IMG/VR virus record: IMGVR_UViG_3300037264_000486
Location: 1-41,345 of that record
From: a virus
DNA: 41,345 nucleotides
Direction: 5' to 3' (one strand)
The position numbers and the translations under genes were made by a program. The notes beneath the pieces were generated by a model that was not told the DNA's origin, ran no database searches, and was given only the letters and a program-made list of their open reading frames with translations. Positions 726-37,539 of this stretch are shown here, in pieces (position 1 is the first letter of the stretch; each line of letters opens with the position of its first letter).

Positions 726-932
726 ATGGGGACAATTAATTCAAAAGAACAAAAAATTAAAGAGTGTGCTGCGATTGTTTTTAATGCTGAAAATAAAATG
801 TATTGCCTTGGGTTAATGAACACGCATGGCAAAACTTACGAAGAAAGAAAGTTGCAGCATGAGATATACGAATTGGCAGATTCTGAGTTAAGGGCTGCGC
901 GTCAAAACTTGGAAGTAGCCAAAAGTTTATAA
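726..932 (+). CDS. Hypothetical protein (68 aa), cassette-like module
   Basis: ATG 726 follows AAAGGTGA. The protein is predicted mostly helical, with many charged residues in its second half. Its TAA stop (930-932) lies inside the TAAC box of the attC-like site at 928-1012, the usual arrangement of a cassette gene whose stop abuts the site. Function unknown. Confidence 0.6.
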   Translation: MGTINSKEQKIKECAAIVFNAENKMYCLGLMNTHGKTYEERKLQHEIYELADSELRAARQNLEVAKSL

Positions 933-1012
933 CGCAAAGTACAGCGGTGCCAACGCTGTACTAATTAAAAACCACGGCCTACGCAGCGTCGCGTTGCTAC
1001 GCCTTGTTATGT
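928..1012 (-). repeat. attC-like site 1 (reverse polarity)
   Basis: Outer boxes TATAACG (928-934) and GTTATGT (1006-1012) are complementary. After a 5-nt spacer GTA pairs with TAC, then CAGCG pairs with CGTTG (one G-T wobble). A single extra C sits between these paired blocks in the right arm, 9 nt before GTTA. This is attC architecture with the site's top strand on the minus strand. A separate perfect 9-bp hairpin (AGTACAGCG / CGCTGTACT) lies inside. Confidence 0.6.
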
Positions 1013-1327: not shown

Positions 1328-1445
1328 ACATAACGCTCGGATAACTGCGCAAGCAAATGAACAACTAATAACACGGTGAAATTTATGGAGCTTGAAACGA
1401 AAAACAGCAACGCCTTGGTTTGTCCAGTTGATACGCTTGTTATGT
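1328..1445 (-). repeat. attC-like site 2 (reverse polarity)
   Basis: ACATAAC (1328-1334) pairs perfectly with GTTATGT (1439-1445). Inner arms AACTG and CAGTT are perfectly complementary, and the right arm has one extra G 9 nt before GTTA, the attC extrahelical-base signature. At about 118 bp it is in the range of long attC sites such as VCR. The 1238-1327 stretch just before it, after the preceding gene, holds a short GGCGGCGAAGCCGTC hairpin and otherwise nothing I can support. Confidence 0.7.
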
Positions 1446-1642
1446 GCTGGAAGCCGTGCAAAAACTGGAAGGATTTACCTGCTGGTAAATGGCTGGTAAA
1501 GATAGCTAATAAACGCAAACCGTACCATGTGGCGGATGTTTTTGAACACACGCAAGGCGATAAAATTATAATTGCCGGCGGTTGTTTTTATTTCGATATG
1601 GGTGAGCTGATAGCATTTACTCCATTTCAAGAGTACACATAA
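1442..1642 (+). CDS. Hypothetical protein (66 aa) starting inside attC box
   Basis: The frame opens at 1376, but that part is attC stem sequence. I choose ATG 1442, which lies inside the GTTATGT box, as is common for integron cassette genes. The product starts MCWKPCKNWKDLPAGKW and contains KIIIAGGCFYFDMGEL, suggesting a small beta-rich fold. Its stop overlaps the next TAAC element at 1637. Function unknown. Confidence 0.5.
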   Translation: MCWKPCKNWKDLPAGKWLVKIANKRKPYHVADVFEHTQGDKIIIAGGCFYFDMGELIAFTPFQEYT

Positions 1643-1714
1643 CAGCGATATACACGGACTGCGCCGTGTATTAACGAAATTATTTATCAATAACGAACCA
1701 ATGAGGTGCAATTA
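1637..1714. repeat. Palindromic intergenic element, copy 1
   Basis: This begins ACATAAC (1637-1643) at the upstream stop codon. It contains the hairpin ATACACGG-ACTGCG-CCGTGTAT (1650-1671), then an AT-rich stretch with ATAACGAAC and AGGTGC before the next ATG. The same design recurs at 36898-36972. Bases 1640-1672 are repeated exactly, in inverse orientation, at 31016-31048. It resembles an attC site whose GTTA box has decayed. Confidence 0.65.
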
Positions 1715-31015: not shown

Positions 31016-31051
31016 AATACACGGCGCAGTCCGTGTATATCGCTGTTAGAG
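31016..31051 (+). repeat. Inverted copy of palindromic element; left edge of cassette insert
   Basis: Bases 31016-31048 are the exact reverse complement of 1640-1672. The hairpin ATACACGG-CGCAGT-CCGTGTAT is followed by TCGCT and GTTAGAG (31045-31051), the R' box that starts the cassette carrying the coiled-coil gene. CTCTAAC at 31557 is its complement. On the minus strand the region also reads as a stem with a nearby T6, so it may end the minus-strand SSB transcript. Confidence 0.7.
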
Positions 31052-31056
31052 TAATC

Positions 31057-31547
31057 ATGCAAAACGACCATCACATTATAATTGCTAAATTTGAGGCCGA
31101 AGGCGAATCTAATGTTAGGTTTAATTTGGCTCATAAAAAATACAATGATATTAAAGCTCAGCTCGCTAAAGACTGGCTTGATTCGTTGGTAAATTACGTG
31201 AATCTGAACTTGAAGTTAAGCGTGAAGCACGAGAAGAGGAAACTCTATCTTTAGTAAAAGAGTCAAATCTAATCGCAAATGCAGCCAATTCAATTTCTAA
31301 TGAATCACGCCTAGCATCAACAGAAGCCAATCGAATTGCTAGCGAATCAAGTGCAGCGGCATTGGAGGCCAATCGAATTGCCAATGAAGCTAATGCAACA
31401 GCTCTTCGCTCTGAATCACATTCTAAGCGGCAAGCTATAGCGGCAGAGCGCGCTTCTCGGTACGCCATGTATGCGGCAGTCGTAGCTATAATTGCGGCAG
31501 CCATCAGCGTTAAAGAGCAAATAATATCAATCATATTTGGCACCTAA
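31057..31547 (+). pseudogene. Frameshifted coiled-coil membrane protein (cassette-type gene)
   Basis: The first frame (ATG 31057 to 31254) gives a soluble start (MQNDHHIIIAKFEAEGES...LAKDWLDSL). The second frame is open from 31182 to 31547 and carries REAREEETLSLVKES, then repeated EANRIA/NES heptads and a C-terminal membrane helix (YAAVVAIIAAAIS). The second frame has no ATG near its start, and REAREEETLS fits as a continuation of the first, so one indel between 31182 and 31251 has split a gene of about 163 residues. I recall this architecture from integron cassette proteins. A sequencing indel is the alternative. Confidence 0.6.
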
Positions 31548-31556
31548 AAATAAAAA

Positions 31557-31689
31557 CTCTAACAAGTCGCTCAAGCACCAGTCGCTTCGCTCCTTGGACA
31601 GTTTTTAAGTCGCAGTTTTGTGGTTTTGCTGCGCAAAAGTATTCCACAAAACTACAACTTAAAAACTGCCGCTTAGCTAGGCGTTATGT
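31557..31689 (+). repeat. Canonical attC site (59-base element), normal polarity
   Basis: CTCTAAC (31557-31563) and GTTATGT (31683-31689) are the outer R boxes. Inside, TAAC-AAGTC-GCT-C-AAGC faces GCTT-AGC-TAGGC-GTTA: GCT/AGC and AAGC/GCTT pair, with one extra C in the left arm, exactly as in VCR and aadA-type attC. The middle is a long near-perfect stem (CAGTTTTTAAGT...ACTTAAAAACTG, with TTTTGTGG/CCACAAAA). At 133 bp it is VCR-sized. It follows the coiled-coil gene, as an attC follows its cassette gene. Confidence 0.85.
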
Positions 31690-34057: not shown

Positions 34058-34193
34058 TTAAAGCCCCCTAAATATTGTTCGGATGCAACAACATTAACAT
34101 AATAATTAATTATAGCAAGTGTTTTTATTAATATTTGACAAAATAAAATTAACTGGTACGATTGAGTCTAATTAATCAGTCAAGGCGTAAAAT
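34058..34193. promoter_or_regulatory. Divergent promoters of early control region
   Basis: Plus strand: TTGACA (34135-34140), 16-base spacer, TACGAT (34157-34162), then the Cro-like gene. Minus strand: extended -10 TGCTATAAT (34117-34109) for the ssb operon. The stretch is very AT-rich, with short inverted runs of TTAAT/ATTAA. This back-to-back layout beside a small helix-turn-helix gene is the lambdoid early-control pattern, and the AT-rich gap is the likely operator area. Confidence 0.7.
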
Positions 34194-34860: not shown

Positions 34861-34904
34861 CCGTCCAGTTGCTGTGACTGGTTATATTTATTAATGGAGG
34901 TTTC
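34861..34904 (+). repeat. attC half-site plus duplicated leader, copy 1
   Basis: This ends GACTGGTTATATTTATT-A-ATGGAGGTTTC, and the matching 28-base stretch at 35227-35254 differs at one base. It contains the GTTATAT R box (34881-34887) and the GGAGG ribosome site. The left arm of the site is not clearly recognisable here, so this looks like a partial attC, or the right end of one, at the array's upstream edge. Confidence 0.6.
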
Positions 34905-35153
34905 GTGAGCAAAATAAAAGACAGCCTTTCAAAATTCATTGAAAGTAAGTTCGGAGTCTTAATTACTGCTGATGAAATTAAGCAGGTTAGGCACCGCTCA
35001 TGTACTGACGTGAGAATTTATTTGAAAGACAACCGTGGCGCTCATTACGAATGCTGCTGGACTATAACGGATCTTTGGAAATACCGTTCAACGATGACAA
35101 TTGTAGAACGTGAATTTCATGTTGATGACCGCCCTTGGCGAAAACCTAAATAA
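34905..35153 (+). CDS. Hypothetical protein (82 aa), cassette-like module
   Basis: GTG start 34905 has GGAGG seven bases before its first codon. The protein is soluble, with N-terminal IKDSLSKFIESKFGVLITADEIKQVRHRSCTDVRIYLKDN and a strand-rich end. It lies between the half-site at 34861 and the attC-like site at 35155. Function unknown. Confidence 0.55.
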   Translation: MSKIKDSLSKFIESKFGVLITADEIKQVRHRSCTDVRIYLKDNRGAHYECCWTITDLWKYRSTMTIVEREFHVDDRPWRKPK

Positions 35154-35154
35154 A

Positions 35155-35238
35155 TTTAACGCCGAGTTAAAAGGCGGCGGTACAAACGAATTTAAAACGC
35201 AAATGGGCAGACCGTCCATTTTGAACGACTGGTTATAT
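35155..35238 (-). repeat. attC-like site 3 (reverse polarity)
   Basis: Reads TAAC-GCCGA-GTT-AAAA on the left and TTTT-G-AAC-GACTG-GTTA on the right. GTT/AAC and AAAA/TTTT pair, with one extra G nine bases before GTTA. R boxes TTTAACG (35155-35161) and GTTATAT (35232-35238). The 84-bp length is typical of attC. Its reverse complement begins TAACCAGTCGTTCAAAA, close to the standard cassette-end sequence. Confidence 0.75.
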
Positions 35239-35256
35239 TTATTGATGGAGGTTTCA

Positions 35257-35451
35257 ATGATTGAAGTAAGGGCAGAGGGTCAAGAGTGGGCAAACGTAGT
35301 TCACGAAGATTGCATTTTTTGTTGCGGTGTTGCAAGGCATTGGCACAAGCCAAGCAATTCCCCTATTTGCAAAGAGTGCGCGAAGGGCCGAGAAGTTTCT
35401 GAAATTGCGGACGCCAAACTTTCAAAAGAAAAAACAATAGCGCCTTGGTAA
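35257..35451 (+). CDS. Zinc-ribbon-like small protein (64 aa), cassette-like module
   Basis: ATG 35257 follows the duplicated GGAGG leader. The frame is open upstream through the attC-like site, but that part is not counted. The sequence has CIFCCG...and PICKECA, two CxxC-type pairs about 20 residues apart, so a single zinc ribbon is likely. The C-terminus is a charged helix. The function may be nucleic-acid or protein binding. Confidence 0.6.
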   Translation: MIEVRAEGQEWANVVHEDCIFCCGVARHWHKPSNSPICKECAKGREVSEIADAKLSKEKTIAPW

Positions 35452-35462
35452 GATTTAATGAA

Positions 35463-35546
35463 TATAACGCTTAGCGCAATTCGCGCTGGGAGCAAGAGTT
35501 AAAAACCGATACTTAAACCGCGTCATTTTGACGCTACTTGTTAAGC
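35463..35546 (-). repeat. attC-like site 4 (reverse polarity)
   Basis: R boxes TATAACG (35463-35469) and GTTAAGC (35540-35546). TAAC-GCTTA-GCG-CAA faces TTG-A-CGC-TACTT-GTTA: GCG/CGC and CAA/TTG pair, and the extra base is A at the same 9-nt position. The right arm also has a perfect GCGTCA/TGACGC hairpin. Length 84 bp. Confidence 0.6.
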
Positions 35547-35565
35547 ATTTACGGGGATTAAGAAA

Positions 35566-35823
35566 ATGCCAGCACAAAAATATTTCACATATGACGCGAA
35601 TGAAGGCTACGAAACCTATGCAACCGAGGAAGATGCGAAGCACGCCGCAAGCACGATGCTCGAACATTATGCCGAGTACGCGCACGAAGGTTGGGCGGAT
35701 GAAGTTGATCAGGTTATGTGGGGCGAAATAAGGCAGCGTGTTATAGAAATCAAAACTGGGCACATGGTTGAGTTTGAAGGCGAGCAAGTCGAGTGCGTAG
35801 ATTACAAACTCGAAAATATTTAA
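35566..35823 (+). CDS. Conserved small acidic protein (85 aa), cassette-like module
   Basis: ATG follows ACGGGGATTAAG. The sequence KYFTYDANEGYETYATEEDAKHAASTMLEHYAEYAHEGWADEVDQVMWGEIRQR resembles small phage and cassette proteins with a YFTYD....E...T.EEA...A pattern and W.E.V.Q..WG. Probably a compact alpha/beta fold. Its end overlaps attC-like site 5 (35819). Biological role unknown. Confidence 0.6.
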   Translation: MPAQKYFTYDANEGYETYATEEDAKHAASTMLEHYAEYAHEGWADEVDQVMWGEIRQRVIEIKTGHMVEFEGEQVECVDYKLENI

Positions 35824-35901
35824 CGTTGAGTTAAAACGCTGCATTTTACAAATGAGAAATGCGCAAATTTCTAGACAGTCGCTTTGAGCGACTTGTTACA
35901 T
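35819..35901 (-). repeat. attC-like site 5 (reverse polarity)
   Basis: R boxes TTTAACG (35819-35825) and GTTACAT (35895-35901). TAAC-GTTGA-GTT-AAA faces TTT-G-AGC-GACTT-GTTA, where GTT/AGC pairs with one G-T wobble and the extra G is in the usual place. Reverse complement of the right arm is TAACAAGTCGCTCAAAG, nearly identical to the canonical site at 31561 (TAACAAGTCGCTCAAGC). Confidence 0.7.
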
Positions 35902-35932
35902 TTACATAGCAAACCTTTTTGGAGAGATAACC

Positions 35933-36115
35933 TTGACCATTTACAAAAATACTGATTTAAAATTTGAAATGGAATTTGCTGGTATGGGTGACAGAAATGA
36001 TACCCACTCGCTTGAATTTAATACAGAGGGCTTGGAAATATACTACGACACCATGCCTTGGGAAGATATTAAGAAAGCGTACAAATTGCTTTTTCACACT
36101 GAGATAGACCAGTGA
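35933..36115 (+). CDS. Small acidic hypothetical protein (60 aa), cassette-like module
   Basis: Start is TTG 35933, with GGAGAG eight bases upstream; no ATG is available near the N-terminus. The product (LKFEMEFAGMGDRNDTHSLEFNTEGLEIYYDTMPWEDIKKAYKLL) alternates beta strands and ends in a helix. It lies between attC-like sites 5 and 6. Unrecognised. Confidence 0.5.
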   Translation: MTIYKNTDLKFEMEFAGMGDRNDTHSLEFNTEGLEIYYDTMPWEDIKKAYKLLFHTEIDQ

Positions 36116-36116
36116 A

Positions 36117-36198
36117 TATAACGCCGTTATAAATTGCGGCTGCACGAACAAACTAAACGCGGAATTCTAATTCCGTCAATTTGATAACTTTGTTACAT
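36117..36198 (-). repeat. attC-like site 6 (reverse polarity)
   Basis: One of the cleanest sites. R boxes TATAACG (36117-36123) and GTTACAT (36192-36198). TAAC-GCCGT-TAT-AAATTG faces CAATTT-G-ATA-ACTTT-GTTA, with all nine arm pairs perfect and one extrahelical G. A GGAATT-CTA-ATTCC hairpin is in the middle. Length 82 bp. Confidence 0.8.
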
Positions 36199-36212
36199 TA
36201 TTGAGGTGATTT

Positions 36213-36473
36213 ATGTTAGGAGATATTGCGGAAATGACATTAGCAACAGAAATGATGCAAGCTAGATTTATGGAGGAAGAGCGAAAAATGTTTGAGCTAT
36301 CCATAGTCGATTTACCTGCCGAAGAAAAAGCAGTTGCAAGAGAAAAGCGACGACTTGAGCAGCGAGAAGACCGCAAGCGCCGCGAACTATGCCAAGCAAT
36401 ACGAGATAGCAAGCCAGGGCTTAGCTGGCTTGATGTTTGGTGGTTGTTTAACGACAAGTATGATAAACAGTGA
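36213..36473 (+). CDS. Charged coiled-coil protein (86 aa), cassette-like module
   Basis: ATG follows GAGGTGATTT. The middle is a long highly charged helix (PAEEKAVAREKRRLEQREDRKRRELCQAIRDSK), ending SWLDVWWLFNDKYDKQ, so it is probably a dimer-forming or nucleic-acid-binding helix. It lies between attC-like sites 6 and 7. No family recognised. Confidence 0.5.
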   Translation: MLGDIAEMTLATEMMQARFMEEERKMFELSIVDLPAEEKAVAREKRRLEQREDRKRRELCQAIRDSKPGLSWLDVWWLFNDKYDKQ

Positions 36474-36478
36474 CTAAA

Positions 36479-36615
36479 TGTAACGCCGAGTTGTGCGGCA
36501 GGCAGCCCAGACTAATTAGGAGAATAAAATGCAAGAAGTAAACGAAACACAAGAACAAAACCGCGTTGGGCTGACTGTCCAGCGCGAAGCGCGATGCACG
36601 AACGACTTGTTATAT
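36479..36615 (-). repeat. attC-like site 7 (reverse polarity), overlapping a gene
   Basis: R boxes TGTAACG (36479-36485) and GTTATAT (36609-36615). TAAC-GCCGA-GTT-GTGC faces GCAC-G-AAC-GACTT-GTTA: perfect arms and one extra G. Deeper, CAGCCCA pairs with TGGGCTG, and GCGC-GAA-GCGC forms a tip-like hairpin. At 137 bp it is VCR-sized. The 3' two thirds lie inside the reading frame that starts at 36529. Confidence 0.78.
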
Positions 36616-36903
36616 TGGCGGCCAATTGACGAAGAGGCCAAGAGCGGTAAAAAGCGATTGCTGTCATTGTTAAACGAAGCTGGTAAGCGCAGAACGATAG
36701 TAGGATTTTGGGTTAATAAATTCTCTATAGAAGACAATAGCGACGAATACGAACATGGCGACTTTAACGAAGCAGACGAGATTTATTACTGGGGTGAAGG
36801 CTGGTATGAAAGCATTGAATCAAGCGATGAATATTCATGCTGCTACGCGATAAAAACAGTAACACACTGGATGCCACTGCCCAAATTTGCAGAGGCAATA
36901 TAA
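36529..36903 (+). CDS. DUF551-like protein with attC-encoded N-terminus (124 aa)
   Basis: The strong AGGAGA site and ATG 36529 lie inside the attC-like site, so residues 1-29 (MQEVNETQEQ...) are translated attC stem. The conserved part starts about WRPIDEEAKSGKKRLL and ends THWMPLP, matching the DUF551 pattern (W.PI....G..ILL...THWMPLP). A TTG at 36605 in the same frame could be the ancestral start. The function of DUF551 proteins is unknown; they are common accessory phage genes. Confidence 0.6.
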   Translation: MQEVNETQEQNRVGLTVQREARCTNDLLYWRPIDEEAKSGKKRLLSLLNEAGKRRTIVGFWVNKFSIEDNSDEYEHGDFNEADEIYYWGEGWYESIESSDEYSCCYAIKTVTHWMPLPKFAEAI

Positions 36904-36972
36904 CAGCGGAATACACGGCGCAGGCCGTGTATTAACGATTTTATTTTAAATAACGAACTAAATAGGTGCGAA
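36898..36972. repeat. Palindromic intergenic element, copy 2
   Basis: It overlaps the upstream stop (ATATAACAG) and carries ATACACGG-CGCAGG-CCGTGTAT, then TAACGA, an AT-rich stretch, ATAACGAACTAAATAGGTGCG and ATG. It aligns over its whole length with 1637-1714, although the genes on both sides are unrelated. Confidence 0.7.
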
Positions 36973-37539
36973 ATGTTAAAAGCTAAGCCGCCTAAACTAC
37001 GCAGATGCGCATCTTGCAAAGATTATTTTATGCCAAAGCGCATAAAATTAAAGTTGCAGCAATGTTGCACAGCGGCGTGTGAATTGACGCATGCCGAAGC
37101 TACGGCTAATAAAGATTTTTTTGCTGAAACGCGGGCTATGCGTAAATGTTTTAATGACAAAGATCCTAAGTGGTGGGAAAACAAGACCGAGGCAAAATGC
37201 AATCAGTTTATTAGATTGCGTGATGCTGGGCGCCCATGTATATCCTGCGGCACAACTTCGCCGCTGGTAGAATATTGCGCTGGTCATTATGTACCGAAAG
37301 CCAGAAGCGCGGCATTGAGATTTAACGAATTTAATATAAATTTACAATGCAATGAACACTGCAACAGAAAAAACTCTGGTAATTTAATTCCGTATCGTAA
37401 GGCACTTATTGAGCGTTATGGAGTAGAAAAAGTTGATTGGCTTGAGATATCACACGCACGTCCGTGCTACAGGATCGACGATTATAAGCGCATTTACGCG
37501 TATTTTTCAGACAAGATTAAGGAATTAAAATGCAACTAA
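36973..37539 (+). CDS. ninG: NinG recombination protein
   Basis: The 188-residue protein is homologous to lambda NinG (Rap), a Holliday-junction/D-loop endonuclease. An N-terminal zinc knuckle (CASCKDYFMPKRIKLKLQQCC...C) is followed by a helical segment. The nuclease-like core is PCISCGTTSPLVEYCAGHYVPKARSAALRFNEFNINLQCNEHCNRKNSGNLIPYR, which parallels lambda's CISCG...DAGHYR...LRFNE.NIH.QC..CN..KSGNLVPYR. It should act with NinB, SSB and the Sak4-like protein in phage recombination. It is preceded by the palindromic element copy 2 with AGGTGCG as ribosome site. Confidence 0.9.
   Translation: MLKAKPPKLRRCASCKDYFMPKRIKLKLQQCCTAACELTHAEATANKDFFAETRAMRKCFNDKDPKWWENKTEAKCNQFIRLRDAGRPCISCGTTSPLVEYCAGHYVPKARSAALRFNEFNINLQCNEHCNRKNSGNLIPYRKALIERYGVEKVDWLEISHARPCYRIDDYKRIYAYFSDKIKELKCN

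Follow-up and report, generated by a model that had tools for sequence, protein, structure and literature searches.

A reversed attC cassette array with an attI-like end element in a podovirus genome, and its probable role as a landing platform for exchangeable phage genes

We analyzed a 41,345-nt viral sequence (IMG/VR record IMGVR_UViG_3300037264_000486, positions 1 to 41,345; hereafter the window) with respect to its positions 34,861 to 36,972, where small phage genes alternate with five sites that had been proposed, from the nucleotide sequence and open reading frames alone, to be integron recombination sites of the attC type. This region, termed array A, is probably a phage cassette platform, i.e., a cluster of attC sites lacking an integron integrase (CALIN) that is anchored by an attI-like element, is one of three such clusters in the genome (A, B, and C), draws on a pool of cassettes common to many phages, and would be served in trans by the integron integrase IntI of the host. 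In arrays A and B the sites are reversed with respect to their genes, whereas cluster C is canonical.

Array A is built of attC-type sites

The strict scan rule (TAAC, 5 nt, 3 pairs, at least 3 pairs whose 3' arm carries a single extra base, 5 nt, and GTTA) returned exactly the sites A1 to A5 on the + strand of the region (Table 1) and, elsewhere in the window, site B1 on the + strand and site C on the - strand; the background in dinucleotide shuffles averaged 0.10 per 41-kb window and 0.003 per 2.2 kb. All five sites of the original prediction were present, although the starts given there lie 2 nt 5' of TAAC. Their predicted layout, in which TAAC, 5 nt, 3 paired nucleotides, an arm, a variable middle, an arm with one extra base, and 5 nt lead to GTTA, was borne out with 3 to 6 further pairs per site, and the extra base lies exactly 9 nt before GTTA in A1 to A5 (G, A, G, G, and G, respectively). 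The intervals, described as ~300 to 420 bp with one small gene each, measure 298 to 362 bp from TAAC to TAAC, and the figure of ~420 bp holds for the last interval alone. TAAC and GTTA are invariant and paired in all sites, and in seven window sites both spacers between the R and L boxes are 5 nt long; B2 fits with 6-nt spacers, which give 7 pairs and a bulged G. A half site at the distal end of array A preserves only the R1 3' arm, and over 44 nt it matches the 3' half of A1 with 84% identity; a search by eye for a matching 5' arm found none.

A degenerate attC pattern run across viral contigs yielded seven loci. We further assessed the sites by a covariance model built from 24 sites of six of these viral contigs and one contig of a metagenome-assembled genome (MAG), from which the window sites had been left out. 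This independent model recovered all five array A sites far above background (E-values of 1.2e-16 to 5.5e-9). The first stem pairs served for site choice, and their pairing is thus partly circular; however, five further pairs (columns 17-21 with 63-68), unused in the selection, form in almost every row, and four of the five show changes on both sides. Bulged among these pairs is a near-invariant T, a second extrahelical base that the original prediction had missed, and which fits the definition of Bouvier et al. of a T located 6-8 nt from the extrahelical G (PMC2727003). The first extra base is present in all sites and the L''/L' stem covaries. The model matches and the covariation of the arms uphold the proposed attC-type identity. 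When sites were folded one by one to minimum energy, the attC fold was not recovered, and the case therefore rests on covariation and not on single-sequence energies. The definition of a CALIN calls for two or more neighbouring attC sites and no intI (PMC9024848); with five attC sites inside 1.5 kb of a complete genome that lacks intI, array A is a CALIN by definition.

Polarity of the sites relative to the genes

In an ordinary cassette, the extrahelical bases are on the R''-L'' arm, which adjoins the stop of the gene (PMC2727003). We assigned attC polarity by the side that carries the bulged bases, with R1 denoting the orientation in which the bulge is on the 3' arm. In the aadA1 control, R1 was found only on the reverse complement of attC, and the aadA1 gene of plasmid R100 has the usual orientation with intI1 divergent from it. 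Genes ran along R1 in 43 of 47 phage cassettes versus 3 of 33 host cassettes, the other 30 host genes running against it (Fisher p 2e-14; sites within one array are non-independent, and the count covers the sites of the strict scan). Accordingly, arrays A and B are reversed, their extra bases lying on the arm that adjoins the start of the next gene, which makes the + coding strand the bottom strand of attC. The attC bottom strand folds and recombines more readily on the lagging-strand template (PMC8946536), and we suggest that the reversed polarity may help through this folding effect. No report of reversed arrays was found in the open-access literature, nor is the reversed polarity discussed in the excerpted text of PMC9892861; to our knowledge, a consistent reversal of genes versus attC has not been described so far.

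The same attI-like element ends each cluster

Clusters A, B, and C all finish in a 32-bp element of the form TAA|CAGCG...ACGG...CCGT, whose three window copies (on the + strand in A and B, on the - strand in C) compare with a chance expectation of none. Read on the other strand, it presents a ...CGCTG|TTA core at the place expected of attI given the attC polarity. The element or a related form was observed in 12 arrays from 10 records, in which the adjoining gene varies but the junction falls precisely at TAA|C, with two of the 12 retaining only CAG of the core; the exact pattern matched zero viral contigs, and matches were obtained only after loosening. We conclude that the element is best read as a putative attI-like site. 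Its 3' hairpin was initially taken for a terminator, a reading that was superseded because an attI-like site fits the position and the junctions better; the hairpin may also act as a terminator. The boundary of A and B is duplicated (36901-36975 and 1640-1709, ~71 nt at 80% identity), and the shared stretch extends past the end element up to the ribosome-binding site (RBS) of the next gene, which is ninG after array A and an open reading frame (ORF) at 1706-1912 after array B.

Cluster C comprises, in order on the + strand, the attI-like element, a gene whose product has a coiled coil and a C-terminal hydrophobic stretch, and an attC of the chromosomal integron type, and both order and polarity are canonical. 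Its anatomy points to a host-type cassette inserted at the phage attI-like site. The frameshift in this gene reflects either a sequencing error or decay.

Shared sites and differing genes in related phages

These attC families recur, with other genes in between, in at least 11 further viral contigs and in phage-like contigs of MAG G016, where they form arrays of 2 to 11 sites. This distribution supports the proposal that the phage region is composed of gene cassettes. Copies of attC reach 100% identity between contigs, and copies of A2 with 91-95% identity occur in five other contigs, where the flanks are dissimilar on both sides. Among 65 cassettes, the gene usually begins soon after GTTA and ends on or just before TAAC; in a second cassette set, the median gene start was 26 nt after GTTA and the median length, including attC, was 325 bp. 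A few whole cassettes are also common to different phages. At the DNA level, the last cassette of array A (DUF551) has 88% identity to its copy in the G016 contig C205, with the bounds G|TTA and TAACAGCG and with high identity spanning from ~9 nt before G|TTA to ~20 nt past the stop. For the VGTG cassette, found in three phages, identity begins at CGACTTG|TTA. The visible cassette breakpoints are located within ~10 nt of G|TT, the triplet at which IntI crosses over, and are not spread over attC. When nearly identical attCs on different contigs were compared in 54 pairs, which are non-independent, the following gene was shared in five and the preceding gene in none, in agreement with a reversed unit of attC plus the following gene.

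The cargo of the relatives includes a C5 DNA methylase, an NT5C nucleotidase, a NUMOD4/HNH endonuclease, and a Tad2-like protein (PF11195, E 5e-26). The Tad2-like (anti-Thoeris) gene (L053 15505-15768, - strand, contig C205) is a single cassette between two attCs of a P22-like phage. Long-loop attCs (112-132 nt) were observed at A5 and B2 and also in C205, in L018, and at the array end of L099, which holds a near-copy of B2. Their loops contain an RBS and an ATG in frame with the next gene, so that the first residues are encoded within the site; in A5 these belong to the DUF551 gene (ORF start 36529). An interpretation of the loop start codons as leader fusions, which assumed canonical sites, was dropped after the polarity analysis, since each gene forms one cassette with the attC that lies 5' of it. 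Relatives identified through the NinG, Hc3, and Sak4 proteins had no convincing array in the stretches examined; both Hc3 relatives are fragments. The genome-wide 22-mer scan matched one phage-like MAG contig and two unrelated places.

Link to integron-bearing bacteria

MAG G016, the source of the phage-like contigs C55 and C205, also has a gene for a bona fide IntI (E 2e-114). Among the relatives of G016, IntI was detected in 13 of the 15 genomes tested, and long chromosomal attC arrays were found by the same covariance model. Site C, which this model matched on the - strand (E 1.7e-8), is identical at 126 of 127 positions to a chromosomal attC of genome G025 (C1:2364482-2364608) and is 85-98% identical to many further chromosomal attCs of the group. 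Because of this near-identity, the sequence data suggest that the host of the window phage belongs to the bacterial group around G016.

Proposed mechanism and alternative explanations

In the proposed phage platform, the chromosomal integron integrase of the host would act in trans, binding the folded bottom strand of attC, which here would be the coding strand, with the crossover at the R box beside the stop of each gene. Cassettes would be gained or lost at the phage attI-like element, and phage promoters, rather than an integron Pc, would read through the cassette genes. With the coding strand as the recombinogenic strand, the genes would follow the operon while the sites would stay accessible to the integrase. 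The cargo would consist of small phage genes that can replace one another, including, in relatives, genes for counter-defence, and would be selected for counter-defence and host takeover. Variable phage regions would thereby serve as landing platforms for cassettes passing between phages and, in the case of cluster C, between phage and host chromosome. The wider generalization, that phages of an integron-bearing group maintain a platform of their own, with an attI-like anchor and reversed cassettes, to exchange counter-defence genes via the host integrase, appears to us evenly balanced between true and false.

How tiny accessory genes are swapped cleanly in the mosaic early regions of phages is an old question. 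The gene boundaries here are integron recombination sites common to many phages with different cargo. If host IntI does move the cassettes, phages would obtain accessory and counter-defence genes via a bacterial gene-storage machinery, and the reversal sharply predicts which DNA strand recombines.

Several observations weigh against the platform model. A profile search of the complete window genome for the integron integrase (TIGR02249) was negative. The consensus GTTRRRY is matched in part (GTTAAGC in A2, and GTTATAT or GTTACAT elsewhere), with GTTA retained. For the window sites, the canonical fold exceeds the minimum energy by 1.2-10.8 kcal/mol (DNA parameters), compared with 0.1-2.6 kcal/mol for four host sites, and several window sites may for this reason be poor recombination substrates. 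The end element resembles host attI at two of six intI loci (ACCGCTG|TTAAAGC and ATTCGCTG|TTAGC), in the core only. Finally, the DUF551 and VGTG genes are common to different phages while the attC 5' of them differs, in three ways for the three VGTG copies, which the reversed-unit model did not predict; attC replacement or homologous recombination must therefore also occur.

The latter fact favors the strongest alternative, namely that the sites are attCs by ancestry while homologous recombination between ~80-bp repeats now accounts for most of the array shuffling, with a minor role for IntI. The phage has recombination genes of its own, encoding a Sak4-like annealing protein, SSB, and NinG, its attC copies of up to 100% identity could serve as homology, and some of the sites fold weakly. 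However, the concentration of breakpoints next to G|TT and the end-element junctions at exactly TAA|C speak against such shuffling, and covariation has kept the arm pairing and both bulged bases, for which homologous recombination has no need. We consider this alternative unlikely. A second possibility, that the arrays are pieces of a host chromosomal integron acquired by imprecise excision or packaging (compare the Vibrio anguillarum phages in the excerpts of PMC9892861), agrees with the chromosomal-type attC and the canonically oriented gene of cluster C. For arrays A and B it is disfavored, as their genes are reversed relative to host cassettes and the cargo includes phage-type genes; moreover, the array A sites are ~78 nt long, and a search of host genomes with a 6-kb query gave high-score matches only at site C and in phage contig C205. 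We consider this origin very improbable. Chance resemblance to attC of plain terminators or of leader repeats in an early operon would account for the excess of terminator-like hairpins (10 versus 3.8 expected in shuffles) and for the array A end element, in which a T-rich stretch comes after a hairpin, but not for the R boxes, the 5-nt spacers, or the two bulged bases at fixed places, and this explanation is refuted by the covariance-model matches, the covariation, and the near-identity of site C to a chromosomal attC of an IntI-encoding genome.

Genome setting

A 127-bp terminal repeat at the window ends indicates a circular, complete phage genome of ~41.2 kb. The genome is of the podovirus type and encodes a P22-type head closure protein, a large terminase, NinG, and Ant. 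The tyrosine integrase domain (PF00589) was absent in a profile search of the complete window genome, yet an Ant-type antirepressor is encoded. An Rfam search of the window and the region gave zero matches, as did a blastn comparison of 4.5 kb with phage and plasmid records. The region has fewer promoter-like sites than the chance number, and the candidate 5' of the Cro-like gene is accordingly weak.

Table 1. Features of clusters A, B, and C and their surroundings in the window. For attI-like elements, the strand is that of the |TTA reading.
Feature	Position	Strand	Evidence or remark
attC B1	930..1009	+	Covariance model E 9.5e-12
Cluster B cassette gene, 67 aa	1034..1237	+	
attC B2, long loop with RBS and ATG	1331..1442	+	TAAC at 1331; covariance model E 0.034, weak
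Cluster B cassette gene, 85 aa	1385..1642	+	phrog_7252
Putative attI-like array-end element, cluster B	1640..1671	-	
Putative attI-like element, cluster C	31017..31048	+	On +: ...ATATCGCTG|TTA
Cluster C gene, canonical orientation, one frameshift	31063..31547	+	Three-frame reading; frames 31033-31254 and 31362-31547
attC C, chromosomal integron type	31560..31686	+ (canonical polarity)	R'' 31560, R' 31683
Promoter-like site 5' of Cro-like gene, possible driver of array A	34135..34162	+	TTGACA-16-TACGAT with TG; weak
Half attC, far end of array A	34861..34885	+	R1 3' arm only
Cassette gene, 82 aa	34905..35153	+	ORF between sites; no match in Pfam and PHROG
attC A1	35157..35235	+	Motif scan; independent covariance model E 1.2e-16
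Cassette gene, 64 aa, cysteine-rich (CxxC pairs)	35257..35451	+	ORF between A1 and A2
attC A2	35465..35543	+	Covariance model E 7.8e-12
Cassette gene, 85 aa	35566..35823	+	phrog_21696; homologues in Klebsiella and Vibrio phages
attC A3	35821..35898	+	Covariance model E 1e-13
Cassette gene, 60 aa	35933..36115	+	ORF between A3 and A4
attC A4	36119..36195	+	Covariance model E 1.3e-14
Cassette gene, 86 aa	36213..36473	+	ORF between A4 and A5
attC A5, long loop	36481..36612	+	Covariance model E 5.5e-9
Cassette gene, 124 aa, DUF551	36529..36903	+	PF04448 E 1e-5
Putative attI-like array-end element, array A	36901..36932	-	On -: ...ATTCCGCTG|TTA
ninG (Rap-type), downstream neighbour of array A	36973..37539	+	PF05766 E 1.5e-39

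Comparison with known systems

The sedentary chromosomal integrons of the G016 group share the attC architecture, and site C is of their type. Their cassettes are longer, with 30 of 33 genes in the usual direction and attCs mostly of 105-135 nt, whereas the phage cassettes are mostly reversed and their attCs mostly measure ~78 nt. The class 1 cassette aadA1 likewise has R boxes, a spacer, and paired arms with an extrahelical base, but unlike arrays A and B it has canonical polarity of gene and attC and lies next to attI1 and intI1. In lambdoid phages, the nin region is a mosaic of small variable early genes beside ninG. Array A similarly places small genes beside ninG, but its gene boundaries are attC sites.

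The original prediction knew of no such array in a P22-like phage. According to the excerpted text of PMC9892861, phage CALINs have been published: Qi et al. (2023) reported 17 in 10,705 phage genomes, and the same source describes integrase-less attC clusters in Tetrasphaera phage TJE1, Pseudoalteromonas phage PH101/H101, and MW202573, the last with a P22-like portal annotation, as well as methyltransferase cargo in some CALINs and recombination of other phages' attCs by IntI1 in E. coli. Our polarity analysis found the H101 sites reversed like those of arrays A and B, and the TJE1 sites canonical, unlike them. The reversed H101 CALIN corresponds to L103 31532-32984 (positions 76532-77984 of the Pseudoalteromonas phage H101 record). 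Cassettes are also known to insert outside integrons at non-classical attG sites, which are simple GTT-type sites (Loot et al., 2024, as cited in the part of PMC11389934 available); the end element differs in that it recurs across many phages and is not a scattered secondary site. Compared with the published phage CALINs, as far as the PMC9892861 excerpts describe them, the window phage adds three clusters, a shared attI-like element, a pool common to many phages, and an attC nearly identical to a chromosomal one. What appears new here is that the genes run opposite to the usual attC polarity, that an attI-like element is common to the array ends, and that many phages seem to draw upon one pool of cassettes.

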